48,514 bases of DNA from Rhizobiaceae bacterium (GTDB lineage: Bacteria; Pseudomonadota; Alphaproteobacteria; Rhizobiales; Rhizobiaceae), in contig JARGOF010000042.1 in NCBI GenBank assembly GCA_029212415.1, positions 1 through 48,514 of the forward strand, written 5' to 3'. This document shows positions 22,867 to 32,835 of this stretch, piece by piece. The number at the start of each line of letters is the position of its first letter. Position 1 is the first letter of the stretch. A program made the translations under genes and the position numbers. The notes under the pieces were generated by a model. It saw only the letters and a program-made list of their open reading frames with translations, was not told where the DNA came from and did not search any database.

Positions 22867-22880
22867 GCCTGCGGCCTATT
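22862..22880. terminator. hairpin overlapping two convergent stop codons
   Basis: AATAGGCC and GGCCTATT are exact complements around TGC. The stem contains the TAG of the ABC exporter and, on the other strand, the TAG of the amidohydrolase. No T-run follows, so terminator strength is uncertain. Confidence 0.45.
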
Positions 22881-23751
22881 CGCTGACACCCAACAGGCGC
22901 ATGGCATTGTCCTTCAGGATCAATGGCCGCACCGCATCCTTGATGGCGATGGTCTCGAAGTCCGCCAGCCAGCGTTCCGGCGCGATCATCGGCCAGTCGG
23001 ATCCGAAAAGCATCTTGTGCTTGAGGATCGAATTGCAGTAGCGCACGAGAATGTCGGGGAAGTATTTCGGCGACCAGCCGGACAGGTCGATATAGACATT
23101 GGGCTTGTGCTGGGCGACGGCCAGCGCCTCTTCCTGCCAGGGAAAGGAGGGGTGCGCCAGAATGATCGGCATATCCGGGAAATCGACGGCGACATCATCC
23201 AGATACATCGGGTTGGAATATTTCAACCGCATGCCGTTGCCGCCGGGCATGCCGGAACCTACTCCGGTCTGGCCCGTGTGGAAAAGCGCCGGCTTGCCGG
23301 TCTCGGCTATCGCCTCATAAAGGGTGTAAGCCATGCGGTCATTGGGATAAAAACCCTGGAAGGTGGGATGCAGCTTGAAGCCCTGCACGCCGAAATCCTC
23401 GACCAGACGCCGGGCCTCGCGCGCCCCCATTTTTCCCTTGTGCGGATCGATCGAGGCAAAGGGTATCAGCACATCGGAATGTTCCGCCGCCAGTTCGGCG
23501 ACCTCTTCATTCTTGTAGCGCCGATAGCCGGTTTCGCGTTCGGCATCGACAGGAAAAATCACGCTGGCAATATTTTGCGCGCGGTAATGCGCCGCGGTTT
23601 CCGGGATGGTCGGCGGGTGGGTCCATGGCGCCCGGAAATATTTTGCCATCGTTGATTGCAGATCATCATAACCGTCATCCGCGTGGCAGCCACAGGGCTC
23701 TTCCGCATGGGTATGAAAATCAATTGCACGCACCTTGGAAAAATCAACCAT
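22876..23751 (-). CDS. amidohydrolase-2 family protein, probable beta-ketoacyl-CoA hydrolase
   Basis: TIM-barrel metal enzyme of 291 aa of the amidohydrolase-2 (ACMSD/resorcylate decarboxylase) group. Metal ligands: HxH in AIDFHTHAEE near residue 10, His in GFKLHPTF, His in IILAHPSF and Asp in LFGSDWPM. In a hydroxycinnamate cluster, an enzyme of this fold (CouO in Rhodococcus jostii; an equivalent in the Agrobacterium fabrum cluster) hydrolyses hydroxyphenyl-beta-ketoacyl-CoA to a benzoate plus acetyl-CoA. That role is inferred here from the neighbouring feruloyl-CoA synthase, hydratase and SDR genes. The ATG at 23751 is the natural start; the frame runs on to 23820. Confidence 0.75.
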   Translation of the reverse strand: MVDFSKVRAIDFHTHAEEPCGCHADDGYDDLQSTMAKYFRAPWTHPPTIPETAAHYRAQNIASVIFPVDAERETGYRRYKNEEVAELAAEHSDVLIPFASIDPHKGKMGAREARRLVEDFGVQGFKLHPTFQGFYPNDRMAYTLYEAIAETGKPALFHTGQTGVGSGMPGGNGMRLKYSNPMYLDDVAVDFPDMPIILAHPSFPWQEEALAVAQHKPNVYIDLSGWSPKYFPDILVRYCNSILKHKMLFGSDWPMIAPERWLADFETIAIKDAVRPLILKDNAMRLLGVSE

Positions 23752-23819
23752 TTGACACTCTCTCTTACCCGGATGGACCTTTGTCACATCAATCCATACC
23801 GGAAAATTATTGCTATTCA

Positions 23820-23838
23820 ATAGAACAATTGTATTGTA
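23820..23838. promoter_or_regulatory. candidate MarR operator 1
   Basis: ATAGAACAATTGTATTGTA, near-palindromic around ACAATTGT, sits in the 126-bp divergent promoter region of the amidohydrolase and enoyl-CoA hydratase genes. It shares GAACAAT-NN-TAT-N-G with the sequence in the marR promoter at 32836-32854 (12 of 19 positions). Confidence 0.45.
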
Positions 23839-23877
23839 GACCTTTCTACAGTGTATTTCCAGAATGGACCGAACGCA

Positions 23878-24660
23878 ATGAATGATGACTCCACAGTTTC
23901 AGAGATTTTGAAAATTGCTCTGGATGGCGAGATTGCGGTCCTGACCATGAACCGTCCGAACAAACGCAATGCGATGAATGACACGCTGCTGGACTCCCTC
24001 GACCGGTTTTTCTCCAAACCTCCCAAGGATGTTCGCGCCGTTGTCCTGACGGGCACCGCAGGGCATTTTTGTTCCGGGCTGGATCTCAGTGAGCATGTAT
24101 CCCGCTCGACCGAGGAAACCCTGCACCATTCGCGCAACTGGCACCGTGTCATGGATGTTATCCAGTATGGCGGCCTGCCTGTCGTTTCTGCAATATTCGG
24201 CGCGGCAATCGGCGGCGGCCTGGAACTTGCCGCCTCCACCCATGTGCGTATCGCCGAGGCATCGTCCATTTTTCAACTGCCGGAAGGGCGGCGCGGCATA
24301 TTTGTCGGCGGCGGCGCAACCGTTCGGGTCGGGCGTATTCTGGGGGCCGATCGCATGACGGAGATGATGCTTACGGGCCGCAAATATAACGCCACCGAAG
24401 CGCTCGGTCTTGGTCTGGCACATTATTCGGTTGCCGATGGGGAAGCCTTTGCACTGGCGATGAAACTTGCCGGAAAAATCGCCCGCAATGCGCCCCTGTC
24501 CAACTACCTGATGGTCAACACCATCAGCCGGGTTGATGACATGAGCCGTTCCGACGGATTGTTCGTCGAGAGCCTCAGCGCAGCGATTTCACAATCAACA
24601 CCGGATGCCGAGGAGGGCCTGAAGGCCTTTCTTGAAAAACGCCCACCTGTTTTCAGGTAA
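23878..24660 (+). CDS. enoyl-CoA hydratase/isomerase (crotonase) family, probable hydroxycinnamoyl-CoA hydratase
   Basis: Crotonase of 260 aa. Oxyanion-hole segments GHFCSGLDLSEH (about 60-71) and AAIGGGLELAAS (about 103-114) are intact, and LPEGRRGIFVGGG carries a candidate catalytic Glu. The N-terminal IAVLTMNRPNKRNAMND is typical. In context it should hydrate feruloyl- or coumaroyl-CoA to the 3-hydroxyacyl-CoA for the SDR enzyme. It does not obviously match the hydratase/lyase (HCHL/Ech) that yields vanillin. The ATG at 23878 is favoured over a GTG at 23851. It is divergent from the amidohydrolase gene with a shared candidate operator. Confidence 0.82.
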   Translation: MNDDSTVSEILKIALDGEIAVLTMNRPNKRNAMNDTLLDSLDRFFSKPPKDVRAVVLTGTAGHFCSGLDLSEHVSRSTEETLHHSRNWHRVMDVIQYGGLPVVSAIFGAAIGGGLELAASTHVRIAEASSIFQLPEGRRGIFVGGGATVRVGRILGADRMTEMMLTGRKYNATEALGLGLAHYSVADGEAFALAMKLAGKIARNAPLSNYLMVNTISRVDDMSRSDGLFVESLSAAISQSTPDAEEGLKAFLEKRPPVFR

Positions 24661-24779: not shown

Positions 24780-25991
24780 TCAGTTTTCCCTTGGCACCGC
24801 GCTGCGCAGAATTTCCAGGAACCGCTTTTGCGGCAGACTGGCAACCCAGCCGGAACGGGTGGTCACGCCGATGGTCCGCTGGCTCGGTTCAAGCGCCACA
24901 TCAATCCGCACCAGAAGACCCAGCTCGATGTCCCTTTTCACCTGTTCGACGGAAACCAGCGTGATCCGCTGCGACGTCCTGAGCAATCCGAGCATGAAAC
25001 TGTGCGATCCGGTCTCGATCGGCTGGGAGACATGCGCCGGCGGGTCAAGGCTTGCGTGCAAAGTCTCGAAATGGGCCCTCGCCGGTGCGCCCTCACGCGG
25101 CATGATCCACGGATAGGCCGCCAGTGCCGCTGTCGTTACAGGCCCTGCTGCGCGCCCCGATTTGACAGCCAGAGGATGGCGCGGGTCAGCGACCACCACC
25201 AGCGAGTCGCGAAACAAGGCCTCCTGTGACAGATCAAAGACACGCTCTTCACTGCGCAGCGCCCCCAGGATGAGATCAAGATCACCCCGTCGCAATGCCC
25301 GGGCCAGACTGGCATAACGCCCATCCAGCACACTGACCAGAACCCGTGGATATTCTGATGCAAACCGGCTGACCGCTTCAGGCAATATGAATGTCTGCAC
25401 CAGAGGCAGGCTGCCAATGGCCAGACGACCCTCGAACTCACCTTGCCAGCACTTCACATCAAAATGCGCCTGACGGAATTCATTGAGCGCCAGTTTTGCT
25501 GCACGTGACAGCTCTTCGGCCTGCAGGGTGGCCCTGGTGCCGACTGACGTCTGTTCAAACAAGGCAATGCCGACGAGCCGTTCCAGATCGCGGCAAGCCC
25601 GGTTGACGGTCGACACCTGCCGTTTCAAAGCTGCCGCTCCTGCGCTGAAACCACCCTGTTCCACAGTGGCGATCAGGGCCCGAAGCTGACCGCCTGTTAC
25701 CAGATGATGCAGGTTTTTGTGCCCGGCAGGCACGAAGCCACCCTTCAGATATCCGACGCCCAGCCGGACCCGTTCGGCAAATATCCGGCCCGGTTCGGTC
25801 AGCACCATCCCGCCGCTTCTGCGGGCAAAGAGCGCGACACCCAGAGCCGTCTCCAGTCCGGCAACGGCCTGTGTCAGCGCCGGTTGCGACAGACCGATCA
25901 CCTGCGCCGCCCTCGACAGGACCGCGCAATCGGCAACAGCCAGAAATCCGTTCAAATGTTTCAGGTTGGGCAATTCTTCAAGAGATTGCAC
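24780..25991 (-). CDS. LysR-family regulator with two N-terminal HTH domains
   Basis: Regulator of 403 aa, about 100 longer than usual LysR proteins. A first winged HTH spans about 10-68 (FLAVADCAVLSRAAQVIGLS, ALGVALFARR) and a second about 100-158 (LIATVEQGGFSAGAAALKRQ, LVGIALFEQT). A LysR substrate-binding domain follows from about 185 to the end. It is divergent from galB across 225 bp and is the likely activator of the ring-cleavage operon. The start is GTG at 25991, with GGGGGTGA just upstream. The double HTH is visible directly; its effect on DNA recognition is unknown. Confidence 0.85.
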   Translation of the reverse strand: MQSLEELPNLKHLNGFLAVADCAVLSRAAQVIGLSQPALTQAVAGLETALGVALFARRSGGMVLTEPGRIFAERVRLGVGYLKGGFVPAGHKNLHHLVTGGQLRALIATVEQGGFSAGAAALKRQVSTVNRACRDLERLVGIALFEQTSVGTRATLQAEELSRAAKLALNEFRQAHFDVKCWQGEFEGRLAIGSLPLVQTFILPEAVSRFASEYPRVLVSVLDGRYASLARALRRGDLDLILGALRSEERVFDLSQEALFRDSLVVVADPRHPLAVKSGRAAGPVTTAALAAYPWIMPREGAPARAHFETLHASLDPPAHVSQPIETGSHSFMLGLLRTSQRITLVSVEQVKRDIELGLLVRIDVALEPSQRTIGVTTRSGWVASLPQKRFLEILRSAVPREN

Positions 25992-26216: not shown

Positions 26217-26951
26217 ATGTCTGAAAGCAAAACCGCATTGGTCATCAGCGCCCATTCAGCCGATTTCGTCTGGCGAGCGGGGGGCGCCATCGCTCTGCAT
26301 GCGAGCCTGGGATACGAGGTGACGGTGGTTTGCCTCTCCTATGGCGAACGCGGCGAAAGCGCCAAATTGTGGAAGCAGGAAGGCATGACCCTGGAAAAGG
26401 TCAAAGCCGGTCGCCGAGTGGAGGCGGAAAACGCCGCCAAGGCGCTGGATGTTCATGACATTCAGTTTTTTGACCTTGGCGATTATCCCCTGGAACTGGA
26501 CCGCGAAGCGAAATACCGGCTGGTCGATGTGATCCGAGCCGTTCAGCCGCGTTTCATGATGAGCCATTCGCACTATGACCCCTATAATACCGATCACGCC
26601 TACGCCACGAATGTCGCCATGGAATGCCGCATGATCGCCCAGGCCTGGGGCCACAATCCCGGTGAAAAGGTTCTGGGCGCACCCCAGCTTTACCTGTTCG
26701 AACCGCATCAGACGGAGCGCATGGGCTGGGTGCCTGATACCTTCCTCGACATCAGCGATGTGTGGGACAAGAAACGCGCGGCAATCGAGTGCATGGAGGG
26801 ACAGGAACACCTGTGGGACTATTACACCAATGTTGCTGAAAATCGCGGCAACCATTTCAGGCGCAACTCCGGCGGTCAGGCCGGCGGCAGACCGGCACGC
26901 TATGCGGAAGGCTTTCAATCCGTCTATCCACGCACAGTCGATGAGCTTTAG
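26217..26951 (+). CDS. galB: 4-oxalomesaconate hydratase, PIG-L/LmbE type (GalB-like)
   Basis: Protein of 244 aa of the PIG-L/LmbE deacetylase fold. It opens LVISAHSADFVWRAGGAIALH, where His13 and Asp16 take the place of the HPDD zinc motif, then CLSYGERGESAKLWKQ and a later HSHYDPYNTDHAYA with further His ligands. In Pseudomonas putida, GalB, a zinc hydratase of this fold, adds water to the enol form of 4-oxalomesaconate to give 4-carboxy-4-hydroxy-2-oxoadipate. The adjacent aldolase and tautomerase genes make that role far more likely than sugar deacetylation. First gene of a four-gene operon, divergent from the LysR gene. Confidence 0.82.
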   Translation: MSESKTALVISAHSADFVWRAGGAIALHASLGYEVTVVCLSYGERGESAKLWKQEGMTLEKVKAGRRVEAENAAKALDVHDIQFFDLGDYPLELDREAKYRLVDVIRAVQPRFMMSHSHYDPYNTDHAYATNVAMECRMIAQAWGHNPGEKVLGAPQLYLFEPHQTERMGWVPDTFLDISDVWDKKRAAIECMEGQEHLWDYYTNVAENRGNHFRRNSGGQAGGRPARYAEGFQSVYPRTVDEL

Positions 26952-27908
26952 ATGATGAACGACATTGCGCATCTCGGCCACGTGGAAATGATGACCGACC
27001 GGTTTGAAGAGAGCCTGGAATTCTTTGTAAACGTCTACGGATTGACCGAAAGCGGGCGCGACGAAAATTCCGCCTATCTCAGAGCCTGGGACGATTACGA
27101 GTTCCACACGCTGAAGCTGACCCGCAGCGACAATACCGGCATCGGCCATGCGGCCTATCGCGCCTCATCGCAAGAAGCACTGCTGCGGCGTGTCGCGGCG
27201 ATAGAGGCCATGGGCTGTGGCATTGGCTGGACCGATGGGGACATGGGCCACGGCCCCGCCTACCAGTTTCATGACCCCGATGGCCATGTTTTCGAGATCT
27301 ACTGGGAAACCCGCAAATATGTGCCGCCGAAAGAAGAGCGCCCTGCCCTTAAGAACATTGCGCAACGCTATCACGGGCGCGGCGTCGCACCACGCCGCAT
27401 TGACCATTTCAACCTTCTGGCAAAGGATGTCAGCGTCATTCGGGAATTCCTGCCCAAGGCCCTTGGATCGCGGGTAACCGAACAGATTGTGCTTGACGAT
27501 GGCACGGTTGGCGGGTGCTGGTTTACCGTTAACAACAAGACCTATGACCTTGCCTACACGCAGGACCATTCCGGCAGCAGCGGTCGCTTCCATCACGTCA
27601 CCTATGCCGTTGACCAGCGCGAAGATGTGTTGCGCGCCGCCGACATCTTTCTCGAAGCCGGTGTTTATATCGAGACAGGCCCCCACAAACACGCCGTTCA
27701 AGGAACCTTTTTCCTCTATGTATGGGAGCCTGCCGGCAATCGGGTGGAAGTGGCCAATGCCGGTGCCCGCCTCATTCTCGCGCCCGACTGGGAGCCGGTG
27801 ACCTGGACCCAGTCCGACCGGGCAAAAGGTCAGGCCTGGGGCCTGAAGACAATCGAGAGTTTCCATACCCATGGAACACCGCCGGTACCAGCCAAGGAGC
27901 ATAAATAA
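26952..27908 (+). CDS. type I (VOC-fold) extradiol ring-cleavage dioxygenase
   Basis: Protein of 318 aa with two vicinal-oxygen-chelate domains (about 5-120 and 148-275), collinear with catechol 2,3-dioxygenase XylE. The iron triad is present at His152 (RIDHFNLL), His215 (RFHHVTYAV) and Glu266 ([10 protein letters not shown]), nearly the XylE numbering of 153/214/265. His247 and Tyr256 match XylE His246 and Tyr255. The second-sphere histidine (XylE His199, in KAHDVAF) is Tyr198 here (KTYDLAY). It starts immediately after the galB stop and overlaps galC by one base. The substrate is probably a ring acid whose cleavage product enters the 4-oxalomesaconate route, such as gallate or a methyl ether of it. 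This is inference. Confidence 0.8.
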
Positions 27909-28579
27909 TGCCTGTTGTTGTTCAGCAATTCGAACGTGCCGATGCCGATATCATTGCCGGTCTGGCAGAAGCCGGTGTCGCAACGGTGCATGAAGCGCAG
28001 CAACGCAGCGGTTTGATGGCAAACCATATGCGGCCGATTTATACAGGCGCGCAGATCGCCGGTTCCGCCATTACCGTTACCGTGCCTCCCGGTGACAATT
28101 GGATGCTGCATGTGGCCATTGAACAGGTCCAACCCGGAGACATCATCGTGGTCGCCCCGACATCACCCTGTGATGACGGCTATTTCGGTGACCTTCTTGC
28201 GCACTCCCTGCGTGCCCGCGGCGGCATCGGCATCGTTATAGAGGCAGGTGTGCGCGATACCCGTGACCTGACCGCCATGGGATTCCCGGCCTGGTCGAAA
28301 TGCATTTCGGCCCAGGGCACCGTCAAGGAAACCCTCGGATCGGTCAATATGCCCATTGCCTGCGCCGGCGCCATCGTCCATCCGGGCGACATCATTGTCG
28401 CCGATGATGACGGGGTCTGCGTTGTCAAACGCCAGGATGCGGCCACGGTGCTGGCCGCTGCGCGCACCCGCATTGATGCAGAGGAAGACAAGCGTCGACG
28501 GCTGGAGGCCGGAGAACTGGGCCTCGATCTTTACGACATGCGCCCCCGTCTGGCGCAAAAGGGCCTCAAATATGTCTGA
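27908..28579 (+). CDS. galC: 4-carboxy-4-hydroxy-2-oxoadipate aldolase (GalC/LigK type)
   Basis: RraA-fold class II aldolase of 223 aa that splits 4-carboxy-4-hydroxy-2-oxoadipate into pyruvate and oxaloacetate, usually with oxaloacetate decarboxylase activity. [30 protein letters not shown] (catalytic Arg and metal-binding Asp) and [18 protein letters not shown] are family hallmarks. The start codon overlaps the dioxygenase stop (TAATG), indicating translational coupling. It is the last step to central metabolites in the operon. Confidence 0.9.
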
Positions 28580-29633
28580 GGGCATACCCTGCATGTGGAT
28601 GCGCGGAGGCACCTCCAAAGGGGCCTATTTTCTTGCAGCCGACCTGCCGACCGAGCCGCAGGAACGCGATCGCCTGCTGCTGGAAATCATGGGGTCGCCA
28701 GACCCGAACCAGATCGATGGCATTGGCGGGGCGGATCCGCTGACCTCGAAAGTGGCGGTGATCGGACCTTCCCGGCGCGATGGCGTCGACGTGGATTACC
28801 TGTTTCTGCAGGTCTTTGTCGATCAGGCCATCGTTACAGACGCGCAAGGCTGCGGCAATATACTGGCCGGTGTCGGTCCCTTTGCTGTTGAGCGCGGACT
28901 GGTCAAAGCGACGGGCGATCTGACCGAAGTCGCGATCTTCATGGAAAACACCGGCAAGCTGGCCATTGCCGAAATCCACACGCCCGGCGGTCGCGTCAGC
29001 TATGCGGGCAGCGCCAGCATAGACGGGGTACCCGGCCACCATGCGCCTGTTGGCCTGTCTTTCAAGGGCATCGAAGGTTCAACCTGCGGCGCGCTGCTTC
29101 CCACCGGCCATCCAGTCGATGTGATCGACGGGATCGAGGTGACGCTGATCGACAATGGCATGCCCTGCGTGGTGATGCGGGCAGCGGACATGGGCATTTC
29201 CGGTTATGAAACGCGCGAAGAACTGGAAGCCAATGAAGACCTGCGCGCCAGACTTGAGGCCATCCGGCTGCAGGCCGGCCCAATGATGAATCTTGGCGAT
29301 GTGGCGAAAAAATCAGTGCCCAAAATGACCATGGTGGCACCGCCGCGCCATGGTGGCACAATTTCGACCCGCACCTTCATTCCCCACCGCTGCCACGCCT
29401 CCATCGGCGTGTTTGGCGCGGTCAGTGTGGCCACCGCCTGCATGTTGCCCGATACGCCCGCAGCCCGAATGGCCATGGTGCCGGACGGCGCCCGCAAGAC
29501 CTTGCAGATCGAACATCCCATCGGCGCAACCACCGCACTTTTGAACCTCGACGAGAGGGGTGCGATTGCCGGTGCCGGCATGCTGCGCACAGCGCGCAAA
29601 CTGTTTGACGGACTGGCTTTTCCACGCGGATAG
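28572..29633 (+). CDS. galD: 4-oxalomesaconate tautomerase (GalD, PrpF family)
   Basis: Diaminopimelate-epimerase-fold isomerase of 353 aa. The N-terminal [35 protein letters not shown] (catalytic Cys) and the late [20 protein letters not shown] are characteristic of GalD/PrpF. It converts the keto form of 4-oxalomesaconate, released by gallate ring cleavage, to the enol form used by GalB. The ATG at 28572 overlaps the end of galC by 8 bp. Last gene of the operon; it converges on the feruloyl-CoA synthase gene with a 17-nt gap. Confidence 0.88.
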
Positions 29634-29650: not shown

Positions 29651-31483
29651 TTATTTACGTGCCTCGATCACCCGCTCGGAGCCTGAATAGATCGCTTCGA
29701 CCAATTGCGGACGATTGGCAATCACCGCCCGCTGGTTGATAGACCCCTTGTCGGTCATTTCACCCTTGTCCAGATCGGGTGCGGTTTCCATCACGATCAG
29801 TCGACGCACACGCGTTGAAGATCCTGTTGCCTCAGCAGCAAAAGAACTCAGCCTTTCTTCAAAGGCAGCGCGGACGGCGGCTTCCCCCATAAGCGATGCT
29901 ATGTCCCGCGCGGTGCCGAGCTTTTGCATGGCATCAATATTGGGCAATACAATCGCCCCGAGATAACTGCGGCTTTCCCCGACGATGACGGCATCGCGAA
30001 TGAGCCCGCCGAAATGATTGATCAGCCTGGCGCGCAACGCACCGACCGCCACCCAGGTGCCTGTGGAGAGTTTGAAATTCTCGGCCGTGCGTCCATCGAA
30101 GAAGAATCCCCGCGTCAGATCATCCGGATCGACAGGGCGCAATGCATCACCCAGCATGTAGTAGCCTTCGTCGTCAATATAGGATTTGGCGCCGCCCGCA
30201 TCGCCGTAATAACCCGGCGTGATCGAAGGGCTTTTGAGTCGCGCTTCCAGTTTGCCGCCATTGGGAACAAGTTTCAGTTTGACGCCCTTTGACGGAACCC
30301 CGACATTGCCCGAGAATGCCTGTTGTTGCGTGCACATCAGGGCAAATGGTCCGGTTTCCGTTGCGCCAAGTCCAGTGGTCAAAAGGACCTCATGCCCGGC
30401 CGTTTCGCGCGACAGGCGCAGAAGATCGTCCCAGGTGTGCTGGGCCATGCCCGCACCGGCATACATCATCATGTCCAGTCGACTGAAAAAATTCTCTCTG
30501 AGAGCATCGTCCTGCTCAAAGGCGTTTACCAGCATTTCATAGCCGACAGGCACATTGAAACACCAGGTCGGCGCAATCTCCTTGAGGTTGCGAATTGTCG
30601 CCGCAATGCCCTGCGGCGTTGGCTTGCCTTCGTCGATGTAAAAGGTGCCGCCATTGAACAGCACCATATTGAACACCTTGTTGCCGCCTGCCGTATGGTT
30701 CCAGGGAGCCCATTCCACCACAATCGGAGGGTGGGCCTTGAGGAAGCGAAAGCAATCGGCAACGATCACCTGATTGGAGGTCATCATGTATTGCGTATTG
30801 ATCACAGCCTTGGGCGATCCGGTCGAACCCGATGTGAACAGATATTTGCCCACTGTTTGCGGCGTCAGCGTCGCAAATGCCGCATCAGCTGCCGTCGTTT
30901 CCGCACGCTGCGTCAGTGTTTCGAAGAGCAGATCTCTATCATCACGCGGGTTGCGCGACACAGCCACGTGACAGCCTTCACCGGCAATCGCCGCCAGTGC
31001 CGGACCGTAAAGCGCGCCGTCAGAGGCAAAGACCAATCCGGGCTTCAGCAAAGATGCGATATCCTTGAGCTTGACGTGATCGGATGACATCAGCGAGTAG
31101 GCAGAAGACACCGGTGCATAGGGAACGCCGACGTATTGGGCGGCCAGCCCCAAAAGGGCATGATCGATACTGTTTTCCGAAAGAATAAGCACCGGCCGCT
31201 GTGGGCCGAGCCCCATATCAAGCAGTGCATTGCCAACAGCGCGGACAGCATCGAGCACCTGTGCATAGCTCAGGCGGCGCCATTCACCCGCATCATCACG
31301 CTCCGCCAGATAGGTCGTATCCGGCTGGATCCCTGCCCATTGCACCAGAAGGTCCGGCATGCTGCGCGGCGGATCGGGCAAAATGCCTTCCTGCGCCATG
31401 ACAATGGTGCCATCGTCGCGGTGTTCAATATCAAATTTCGGATCCCAGAAAGCATCCGATTTCCGCTCAGCAATAGGTGACAT
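29651..31483 (-). CDS. fcs: feruloyl-CoA synthase
   Basis: ANL-superfamily acyl-CoA ligase of 610 aa. Adenylation motifs YLFTSGSTGSPKAVINT, GLGATETGPFALM and the late GFFFDGRTAENFKLSTGTWV, which is specific to the feruloyl-CoA synthase branch, are intact. It activates ferulate, coumarate or caffeate with ATP and CoA, the entry step of hydroxycinnamate catabolism. The ATG at 31483 has GAGG 7 nt upstream; TTG codons just before are less likely. It follows the SDR and marR genes in one probable operon. Confidence 0.9.
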   Translation of the reverse strand: MSPIAERKSDAFWDPKFDIEHRDDGTIVMAQEGILPDPPRSMPDLLVQWAGIQPDTTYLAERDDAGEWRRLSYAQVLDAVRAVGNALLDMGLGPQRPVLILSENSIDHALLGLAAQYVGVPYAPVSSAYSLMSSDHVKLKDIASLLKPGLVFASDGALYGPALAAIAGEGCHVAVSRNPRDDRDLLFETLTQRAETTAADAAFATLTPQTVGKYLFTSGSTGSPKAVINTQYMMTSNQVIVADCFRFLKAHPPIVVEWAPWNHTAGGNKVFNMVLFNGGTFYIDEGKPTPQGIAATIRNLKEIAPTWCFNVPVGYEMLVNAFEQDDALRENFFSRLDMMMYAGAGMAQHTWDDLLRLSRETAGHEVLLTTGLGATETGPFALMCTQQQAFSGNVGVPSKGVKLKLVPNGGKLEARLKSPSITPGYYGDAGGAKSYIDDEGYYMLGDALRPVDPDDLTRGFFFDGRTAENFKLSTGTWVAVGALRARLINHFGGLIRDAVIVGESRSYLGAIVLPNIDAMQKLGTARDIASLMGEAAVRAAFEERLSSFAAEATGSSTRVRRLIVMETAPDLDKGEMTDKGSINQRAVIANRPQLVEAIYSGSERVIEARK

Positions 31484-31526
31484 CAACAATCCTCATCTGT
31501 GCCATATATCGAAAAGGCGCTTCGCC

Positions 31527-32294
31527 CTATCGGGGTGCCATGCGTATGGCGCCATCCAGACGGATGACCTCACCGTTCAACATGGTGTTTTCAACGATAT
31601 GGCGCACCATCGCTGCAAATTCCGCCGGATCGCCAAGCCGCGATGGAAAGGGAACCTGAAGACCCAGTGATTTTTGCACATCGTCGGGCAACCCGGCCAA
31701 CAGGGGCGTCAGAAAAATGCCCGGCGCAACGGTGCACACCCGAATACCATGGGAGGCCAGATCCCTTGCCATCGGCAGGGTCATCCCCACGATACCACCC
31801 TTTGATGCCGAATAGGCGACCTGACCGATCTGCCCGTCATAGGCGGCAACCGAGGCTGTATTGACGATGACGCCGCGTTCGCCGTCCGGAGAGGAGCCCT
31901 CACCTGCAGCCATCAGGGCAGCAGCCTGTGAGGCGCAGTTGAACGTGCCCATCAGGTTGACCCTTATCACCTTTTCAAAGACAGCCGGATCGTGCGCTTC
32001 ACCGCGCGAAACGGTCTTGGCCGCGGGTCCTATGCCCGCGCAATTGATCAGGATATTCAAACCGCCATGCTGTGTCTTCACAGCGTCAAGCCCCTTGCCG
32101 ACGCTGGCCGGATCACTGACATCGACCGATTGGAAGTCACCGCCGATTTGTTTGGCCATTGCTGTTCCCAGATCCGCATTCATGTCAAAGATCGTGACCT
32201 TTGCGCCCTGCGATGCCAGCTCCTGTGCGACAGCAGCGCCAAGGCCGGATGCACCGCCAGTGACAATCGCCACCGTTTTATCTGTTATTTTCAA
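31527..32294 (-). CDS. SDR dehydrogenase, 3-hydroxyacyl-CoA dehydrogenase type
   Basis: Classical short-chain dehydrogenase of 255 aa. It has the cofactor motif TGGASGLG, an acidic residue after beta-2 (FDMNADLG) that indicates [11 protein letters not shown], and the catalytic YSASKGG with the preceding TASVAAYDG. The sequence is closest in style to type II 3-hydroxyacyl-CoA dehydrogenases (HSD17B10-like). Here it should oxidise the hydroxyphenyl-3-hydroxypropionyl-CoA made by the hydratase. The TTG at 32294 is chosen because AGGAGG lies 7 nt upstream. It begins just after the marR stop. Confidence 0.87.
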
Positions 32295-32296
32295 GA

Positions 32297-32773
32297 TCAA
32301 TCCTCCTCATTCTGGACGCGCTGCAACAATGTGATCAACGTCTGGCGCTCCTCACTGTTCATGCTCCCAAGAACCCGCTCTTCGTGCCTGTGAACAGCAG
32401 CCAGGGCCTTGGCATAGAAATCATGCCCCTTGAGGGTCGCCCGCAATGCATAGGCGCGCCGATCCCCCGGCACCTTTTCGCGCTGGATGAGATCACGCCC
32501 CTCCAGCTCGTCGACGATCACAACGGTACCGGAGCGTTCGATCGCGAGCGCTGCGGTGACAGCGCTCTGGCTGATATCAGGGTTGGCAACCACAATGGAC
32601 AGCACGGAAAATGTCCGCTGCGTGAGCGCCAGCTCGTCCAGCGTCGCCTTGAAATCACGGTGCATATACATGTAGGCGCGCTTGATATTATAGCCGACCA
32701 GGCCAAACAGGTCCGACTGCGATACGCTGCCGGTTTCTTTTCTGTTTTTCTTGATGCGTGATGGTACCGGCAT
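32297..32773 (-). CDS. MarR-family regulator of the hydroxycinnamate genes
   Basis: Winged-helix dimeric regulator of 158 aa. [20 protein letters not shown] and [29 protein letters not shown] form the HTH, and [18 protein letters not shown] is the wing with the family DxR signature. It resembles HcaR/CouR-type repressors that release DNA when hydroxycinnamoyl-CoA binds; that ligand is inferred from the cluster. The ATG at 32773 has GAGGAAG upstream. First gene of marR-SDR-fcs. Confidence 0.88.
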
Positions 32774-32835
32774 TGTGCTTCCTCGTGCCCCAACAGCCGC
32801 TGCCAGGCAGCAAACAGTCAAAATTTGGTTCTATG

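Follow-up and report, generated by a model that had tools for sequence, protein, structure and literature searches.

Gallate arises when lignin and tannins are broken down. In the portions of the literature considered here, the enzymes that cleave its ring go by the names GalA, DesB, DesZ, LigAB or LigAB2 (PMC12314914, PMC8091115), and GalA acts together with the downstream enzymes GalB, GalC and GalD (PMC12314914). GalA of Pseudomonas putida KT2440 and DesB of Sphingobium SYK-6 are described there as type II enzymes of the LigB fold (PMC3962378, PMC4250580). A differently composed operon has been found at positions 26217-29633 of contig JARGOF010000042.1 (assembly GCA_029212415.1) from a Rhizobiaceae bacterium, which has been analysed as one window of 48,514 nt with coordinates given on the forward strand. 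In this operon galB, a gene for a VOC-fold dioxygenase, galC and galD follow each other on the plus strand, abutting or overlapping, and the VOC protein has shown no match to the LigB family (PF02900, E 0.001). Judged from sequence and gene context, this protein is probably a non-homologous gallate dioxygenase of type I fold that replaces GalA/DesB, and it would then carry out the same reaction as these enzymes.

The original prediction had stated that the operon encodes a GalB-like hydratase, a GalC aldolase and a GalD tautomerase, that its ring-cleaving enzyme is a type I extradiol dioxygenase of VOC fold, and that the four genes touch or overlap, all of which has been borne out by NCBIfam and Pfam models, PDB matches, a fold model and the gene coordinates:

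26217-26951, plus strand: galB, 4-oxalomesaconate hydratase of PIG-L fold (PF02585; best PDB match 5cgz, '4-oxalmesaconate hydratase', E 1.9e-94; 59% identity to a Pantoea gene annotated galB)
26952-27908, plus strand: VOC-fold (type I) extradiol dioxygenase, predicted gallate dioxygenase (TIGR03211, alignment, AlphaFold, Foldseek)
27908-28579, plus strand: galC, 4-carboxy-4-hydroxy-2-oxoadipate aldolase (TIGR02798 and NF006731 over cut-off; best PDB match 3noj, an aldolase for the same substrate)
28572-29633, plus strand: galD, 4-oxalomesaconate tautomerase (NF033377, 530 bits against a cut-off of 440; best PDB match 6p3j, oxalomesaconate isomerase)

The VOC gene starts at the base directly after the end of galB and has one base in common with galC, and galD overlaps galC by 8 bases when it is read from the ATG at 28572, which is likely its start rather than the upstream TTG of the open reading frame list. 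All three lower-pathway enzymes are thus present, linked and of the oxalomesaconate type, which supports gallate as the substrate of the route.

The VOC protein scores 318.1 bits against TIGR03211 (catechol 2,3-dioxygenase), narrowly below the curated cut-off of 320.2, which its cousins from Thermus (332.2) and Roseomonas (354.9) exceed. Its AlphaFold model (pLDDT 82.8, pTM 0.85) has the type I fold, as the best 50 of 896 Foldseek matches are type I extradiol dioxygenases, with 3lm4 as the best match at a TM score of 0.90 (by query length). According to the alignment with 1mpy, the predicted iron ligands His152, His215 and Glu266 correspond to residues 153, 214 and 265 of XylE, which we take to be the iron-binding residues, and they are invariant in all 127 aligned rows. 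His247 and Tyr256, equivalent to XylE His246 and Tyr255, are kept as well. At one position the active site departs from this pattern: Tyr198 aligns with XylE His199, which, like His200 of homoprotocatechuate dioxygenase, is the second-sphere catalytic His. Acid-base catalysis and the steering of oxygen are ascribed to this His in work on homoprotocatechuate dioxygenase, of which the variants H200N, Q, E and C have been observed among the Foldseek PDB matches (best 50 of 896). Tyr198 is present in 114 of 114 rows with at least 55% identity and also in PDB entry 9wgj (53%); in the other 12 rows, XylE, LapB and 3lm4 among them, this position is His. Near-duplicates such as L004 and L041 are included in this tally of 127 rows, and L079, L109 and L120 have been left out due to a stop in the aligned stretch. 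In a tree of 50 tallied sequences, in which some long branches have been flagged, the Tyr group (38 sequences) is set apart by a branch with support 100/98. With Tyr198 in place of the second-sphere His, proton transfer must differ in detail, and Tyr198 would presumably have a role in it; the third hydroxyl of gallate may make the usual His unnecessary.

We infer the substrate and the cleavage site of the VOC protein as follows. Fe(II) would be held by His152, His215 and Glu266, two neighbouring hydroxyls of gallate would be chelated, and the ring would be cleaved to 4-oxalomesaconate, which GalD, GalB and GalC would convert to pyruvate and oxaloacetate. The gallate may be derived from syringyl compounds, for example from sinapate by way of the adjoining CoA-dependent hydroxycinnamate genes and subsequent O-demethylation, for instance by an unlinked LigM-type enzyme, and in other carriers from tannins. 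The substrate may instead be 3-O-methylgallate or, for part of the clade, protocatechuate.

The remainder of the genome (5.84 Mb, 99% complete) has been searched for a conventional ring-cleaving enzyme of this route. A search with PF02900 has returned two LigB-fold proteins, of which the first exceeds the cut-off for HpaD_Fe (3,4-dihydroxyphenylacetate 2,3-dioxygenase, iron type), and the second is nearest to the 4,5-DOPA dioxygenase model while staying below its cut-off. Neither the LigB query (E 1e-8) nor the gallate dioxygenase model NF009904 (E 1e-10) has found a match. Since plasmid genes annotated as gallate dioxygenase show 42-47% identity to the LigB query, among the matches listed, the LigB search should have detected such an enzyme in the host genome. 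The LigA query was without a match, but it was silent in the control genomes too, and a LigC query has found no match at 1e-50 (15 of 32 first-look candidates scored). A combination of LigAB and LigC has accordingly not been found, within the limit set by the silent LigA controls, and the same holds for LigAB or GalA encoded outside the operon, which the original prediction had named as the observation that would speak against it. Its statement that LigC and LigI are missing stands for LigC; for LigI it is true of the window and not of the genome, as a homologue with 59% identity lies on a different contig. This homologue adjoins a TRAP-type transporter. At its locus (L197 6641-11423, G000 contig 3) it is divergent from an apparent LysR gene and is followed by genes for a DctM-type permease and an NMT1-like binding protein, and the locus looks like one for uptake and opening of 2-pyrone-4,6-dicarboxylate (PDC) without making it. 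An amidohydrolase gene inside the window (PF04909) has been considered as LigI and rejected, as the LigI query (E 1e-60) matched the gene on the other contig instead. The host genome further encodes PcaH of the ortho pathway, over cut-off, and a LigM-type O-demethylase, also over cut-off, which stands behind a GntR gene and is unlinked to the operon.

The association of the VOC gene with the gal genes has been followed through a set of 151 genomes, consisting of the host and 150 relatives, whose kinship makes the p values given here descriptive. A VOC ortholog occurs in 28 of them (host included) with 65-100% identity, the next matches reaching at most 32%. At 24 of the 28 loci gal genes lie within 1.5 kb of the VOC gene in several gene orders, galB itself at 23; of the four remaining loci (L005, L016, L021, L030) the first, in G039, has galB about 5 kb away. 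The conservation of the orthologs together with this linkage argues against a chance association of VOC and gal genes. GalB is present in 28/28 VOC genomes compared with 12/123 others (p 2.4e-21), and GalD at 1e-60 in 27 of 28, with G124 as the miss. A LigB-like protein with at least 40% identity is found in 4/28 and 9/123 genomes, respectively (p 0.26), so that 24 of 28 VOC genomes are without it, and 26 of 28 have no LigC match. The 40 genomes with GalB divide into 24 with VOC only, 8 with a LigB-like protein only, 4 with both and 4 with neither (p 0.0019). The original prediction had proposed a search for co-occurrence of the VOC protein with galBCD and absence of ligAB/galA, and its inference of a non-homologous replacement of gallate dioxygenase, as a predicted activity, is supported both by these counts and by the searches for competing enzymes. 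A weak LigB-like stretch (29-33%) lies inside the gal cluster of G107, one of the genomes with neither enzyme. In another genome of the same genus as the host, G002, galB, galC, galD and a DUF1932-like gene are located at L202 471-3773, and neither a VOC ortholog nor a LigB-like match has been found in that genome.

A wider view of the gene neighbourhoods has been obtained from the best 80 of at least 582 confirmed relatives in genome contigs, where flank genes were assigned by reference tblastn with identity thresholds set by hand, and where some flanks are short or cut by contig ends. galB has been found in 51, galD in 50 and galC in 47 of these 80 flanks, followed by DUF1932 (41), LigM (28) and MetF-like (18) genes. 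LigA, LigB and LigC are absent from all 80 at the thresholds used (at least 40% for LigC), and a DesZ-like type II gene occurs in one. Syringate needs two successive O-demethylations to become gallate, and this is matched by the gene run LigM-GntR-LigM-VOC-GalB-GalC-GalD-DUF1932-MetF in G040, in which both O-demethylases exceed the LigM cut-off and not that of DesA. Across the genome set, LigM with at least 60% identity is found in 17/28 VOC genomes and 4/123 others (p 7.6e-12). A second source of gallate is indicated by a plasmid of Agrobacterium tumefaciens from walnut, in which the gene after galB-VOC-galC-galD gives a full match to Pfam Tannase (438 bits). Tannase releases gallate. Tannase as a general partner of the VOC enzyme has been rejected, as it is not enriched across the 151 genomes, and a tblastn search of the collected loci with the A. 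tumefaciens tannase has found a match solely at its source locus.

Eleven annotated plasmid loci with members at 60% identity or more complement this set. galB stands next to the VOC gene or one small gene off at five of them, and at two more (Thermus, Pantoea piersonii) a PIG-L/galB gene and galC are located farther away. In Roseomonas, the plasmid-borne VOC gene is preceded by genes for a type II enzyme, in one case annotated as gallate dioxygenase, and for an alpha/beta hydrolase; a ring-hydroxylating dioxygenase alpha subunit and an oxidoreductase of the PDR/VanB family are encoded close by. This arrangement suggests that the type II and VOC enzymes divide 3-O-methylgallate and gallate between them. 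We lean, by a small measure, towards the broader view that Tyr-clade type I dioxygenases of Alphaproteobacteria and Pantoea, and remotely of Thermus and an actinomycete, have replaced type II gallate dioxygenases in syringyl-lignin/tannin catabolism, with a natural His-to-Tyr exchange at the active-site position of the acid-base residue.

Several observations weigh against gallate as the substrate. No gal gene is present in the flank of 29 of the 80 loci, some of which have short flanks, and at 14 of these no gene other than VOC has been recognised, bar an aldehyde dehydrogenase in three. Three of the 11 plasmid loci (two Roseomonas, Methylobacterium) have galC near and no galB, and the locus on the Pantoea At-9b plasmid has no gal gene within 9 kb. 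LigM at the 60% threshold is missing from eleven of the 28 VOC genomes, and by analogy to Agrobacterium fabrum LigM may serve vanillate only. Type II and LigC counts over the 151 genomes as a whole do not differ between VOC carriers and others: NF009904 is over cut-off in 1/28 (G008, 85% complete) and 3/123 genomes (p 0.56), and LigC occurs in 2/28 and 9/123 (p 1). Tannase is found in 3/28 and 5/123 genomes (p 0.17), and a tannase query has given no match in the host genome at 1e-20. The relative 9wgj has been deposited under the name 'Catechol 1,2-dioxygenase'. Two further points, the frequency of LigI and the Thermus oshimai locus, belong to specific alternatives.

Next after gallate comes 3-O-methylgallate as the main substrate, which we regard as unlikely. 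The VOC enzyme would then produce 4-carboxy-2-hydroxy-6-methoxy-6-oxohexa-2,4-dienoate (CHMOD) or PDC, and LigI would open PDC to 4-oxalomesaconate for GalDBC. Type II enzymes are described, in the part of the source considered, as turning 3-O-methylgallate into CHMOD, which cyclises to PDC (PMC8091115), and in the host genome LigI is represented by a homologue and LigC has given no match. LigI with at least 42% identity occurs in 11/28 VOC genomes and 11/123 others (p 2.5e-4, one 39% match left out), and in the flank of 5 of the 80 loci, both of which are compatible with this substrate. Against these findings stand the lack of a LigI match (E 1e-60) in 17 of the 28 VOC genomes and the position of the host LigI beside a transporter, as would be expected for PDC uptake. 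In G040, the LigM enzymes of the same gene run would consume 3-O-methylgallate, and a tannase-linked operon would receive gallate rather than its methyl ether.

Protocatechuate has to be considered in second place, and with still less probability: the VOC enzyme would be a protocatechuate 4,5-dioxygenase, and an unlinked dehydrogenase would oxidise the semialdehyde, giving 4-oxalomesaconate in its enol form. The cousin of the VOC protein on a Thermus oshimai plasmid (63%) sits with 4-hydroxybenzoate 3-monooxygenase, aldehyde dehydrogenase, PIG-L and GalC genes, which looks like protocatechuate chemistry, and aldehyde dehydrogenase genes are found in the flank of 4 of the 80 loci and in a Roseibium plasmid locus. 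This reading is opposed by the distribution of PcaH, which is present in 27/28 VOC genomes and 63/123 others (p 2.6e-6). Protocatechuate thus has its own route in the VOC genomes, which favours gallate as the substrate. PcaH is absent from 8 of the 11 genomes with LigC, in contrast to the 27 of 28 VOC genomes that have it, so the VOC operon does not resemble the protocatechuate route, and LigC itself is found in just two of the VOC genomes and, at 40% identity or more, in none of the 80 loci. A DUF1932 dehydrogenase-like gene, present at about half of these loci, has been tried as a substitute for LigC and rejected, as it also adjoins galBCD in G002, where no VOC gene has been found, and is thus not specific to the VOC enzyme. 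The last alternative, an ordinary catechol 2,3-dioxygenase, as such proteins are often auto-annotated, that has come into the operon by accident, is very improbable in spite of the TIGR03211 scores close to or, in Thermus and Roseomonas, above the cut-off, given the gal linkage in several gene orders and bacterial families, the Tyr198 that sets the clade apart from XylE, LapB and 3lm4, and the 11 annotated plasmid loci, in which hydroxymuconic semialdehyde hydrolase, 4-oxalocrotonate enzymes and 4-hydroxy-2-oxovalerate aldolase are found at none and aldehyde dehydrogenase is listed at two only.

Some further observations concern the genes named above. The Thermus oshimai locus (L036 7342-17457), whose VOC enzyme belongs to the Tyr clade, also encodes a DUF6282 protein and an NAD(P)-dependent oxidoreductase, and it perhaps represents a protocatechuate 4,5 route of type I that does without LigC and LigI. 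The DUF1932 / NAD-binding protein, for example at L054 12698-13585, has also been annotated beside gal genes on plasmids, and a gene annotated 'NAD(P)-dependent oxidoreductase' is found inside a LigABC cluster as well. A gene resembling cobalamin-independent methionine synthase occurs at 14 of the 80 loci (L060, L070, L080 and others, mostly Bosea) and also at L039 (Pantoea); in many of them it lies some 1.1 kb ahead of the VOC gene, mostly accompanied by a more divergent galB (46-50%), and it is possibly a methyl acceptor system for O-demethylation.

On both sides of the operon, the window carries genes of regulation and of a putative hydroxycinnamate route:

22876-23820, minus strand: amidohydrolase beside the hydroxycinnamate genes (PF04909, 180 bits)
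23851-24660, plus strand: enoyl-CoA hydratase family enzyme (PF00378; NF006013 over cut-off)
24780-25991, minus strand: LysR-type regulator with two N-terminal helix-turn-helix (HTH) domains (PF00126 in two stretches and PF03466)
29651-31489, minus strand: feruloyl-CoA synthetase-like acyl-CoA synthetase (NF009232, 690 bits, below the cut-off of 777)
31527-32300, minus strand: short-chain dehydrogenase/reductase (SDR; PF00106; analogy to Atu1415)
32297-32821, minus strand: MarR regulator, HcaR-like by position (PF12802 and PF01047; analogy to Atu1422)

The LysR gene is divergent and upstream of the operon, and it likely encodes its regulator; LysR homologues are found in the flank of 22 of the 80 related loci. 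LysR proteins with tandem HTH_1 domains have been seen also beside a Sphingobium lig cluster (L121), the gal cluster of G107 (L204) and an Agrobacterium gal cluster (L206), so that this architecture is a possible hallmark of oxalomesaconate-pathway regulators. By analogy to the A. fabrum region SpG8-1b, the acyl-CoA synthetase would feed acids of the ferulate/sinapate type into the route and the SDR is likely its beta-hydroxyacyl-CoA dehydrogenase; the enoyl-CoA hydratase likely belongs to the same route.

If the Tyr clade indeed cleaves gallate, a gap in the degradation of lignin and tannins would be closed for many Alphaproteobacteria, the labels 'catechol 2,3-dioxygenase' or 'bphC' would be wrong for this clade, and one reaction would have been reached convergently by two unrelated folds. 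With its natural Tyr where homoprotocatechuate dioxygenase has been mutated (H200N, Q, E, C), the clade would offer a ready comparison for proton movement in extradiol enzymes. No type I gallate dioxygenase has been recognised by title or abstract start among the open-licence papers listed, and a description elsewhere is possible.

In comparison with the catechol dioxygenases XylE, LapB and AphC (1mpy, 3hpv, 7q2a), the VOC protein has in common with them the fold, the three iron ligands and the equivalents of His247 and Tyr256, whereas the identity amounts to about 27-35%, His stands in the place of Tyr198, and those enzymes serve the catechol meta pathway rather than a gal operon. The structure 9wgj is far closer and groups with the Tyr clade, but has Asn at position 250 where the VOC protein has Gln; its sequence is that of a type I extradiol enzyme of this clade, so its name is either wrong or points to a changed regiochemistry. 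Regarding the surroundings of the operon, a CoA synthetase, a hydratase, an SDR and a MarR gene are likewise combined in SpG8-1b of A. fabrum, and a GntR gene with a LigM-type O-demethylase is found elsewhere in the host genome as in that system, which leads to vanillate and protocatechuate; the part of that account considered here describes no ring-cleavage operon (PMC7797058). For a Neorhizobium genome, ligA, ligB, ligI and galBCD have been named beside pca genes in the section of the source considered, the names being those of the annotation given there (PMC11356111). The route as a whole has a parallel in Pseudomonas sp. NGC7, where, according to the parts of the two accounts considered, syringate is converted via 3-O-methylgallate to 4-oxalomesaconate by VanA1B1 and MgaAB and then handed to GalDBC (PMC12314914, PMC8091115). 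The ring-cleaving enzyme there is split and is a relative of GalA and LigAB, unlike the VOC protein of the present operon.

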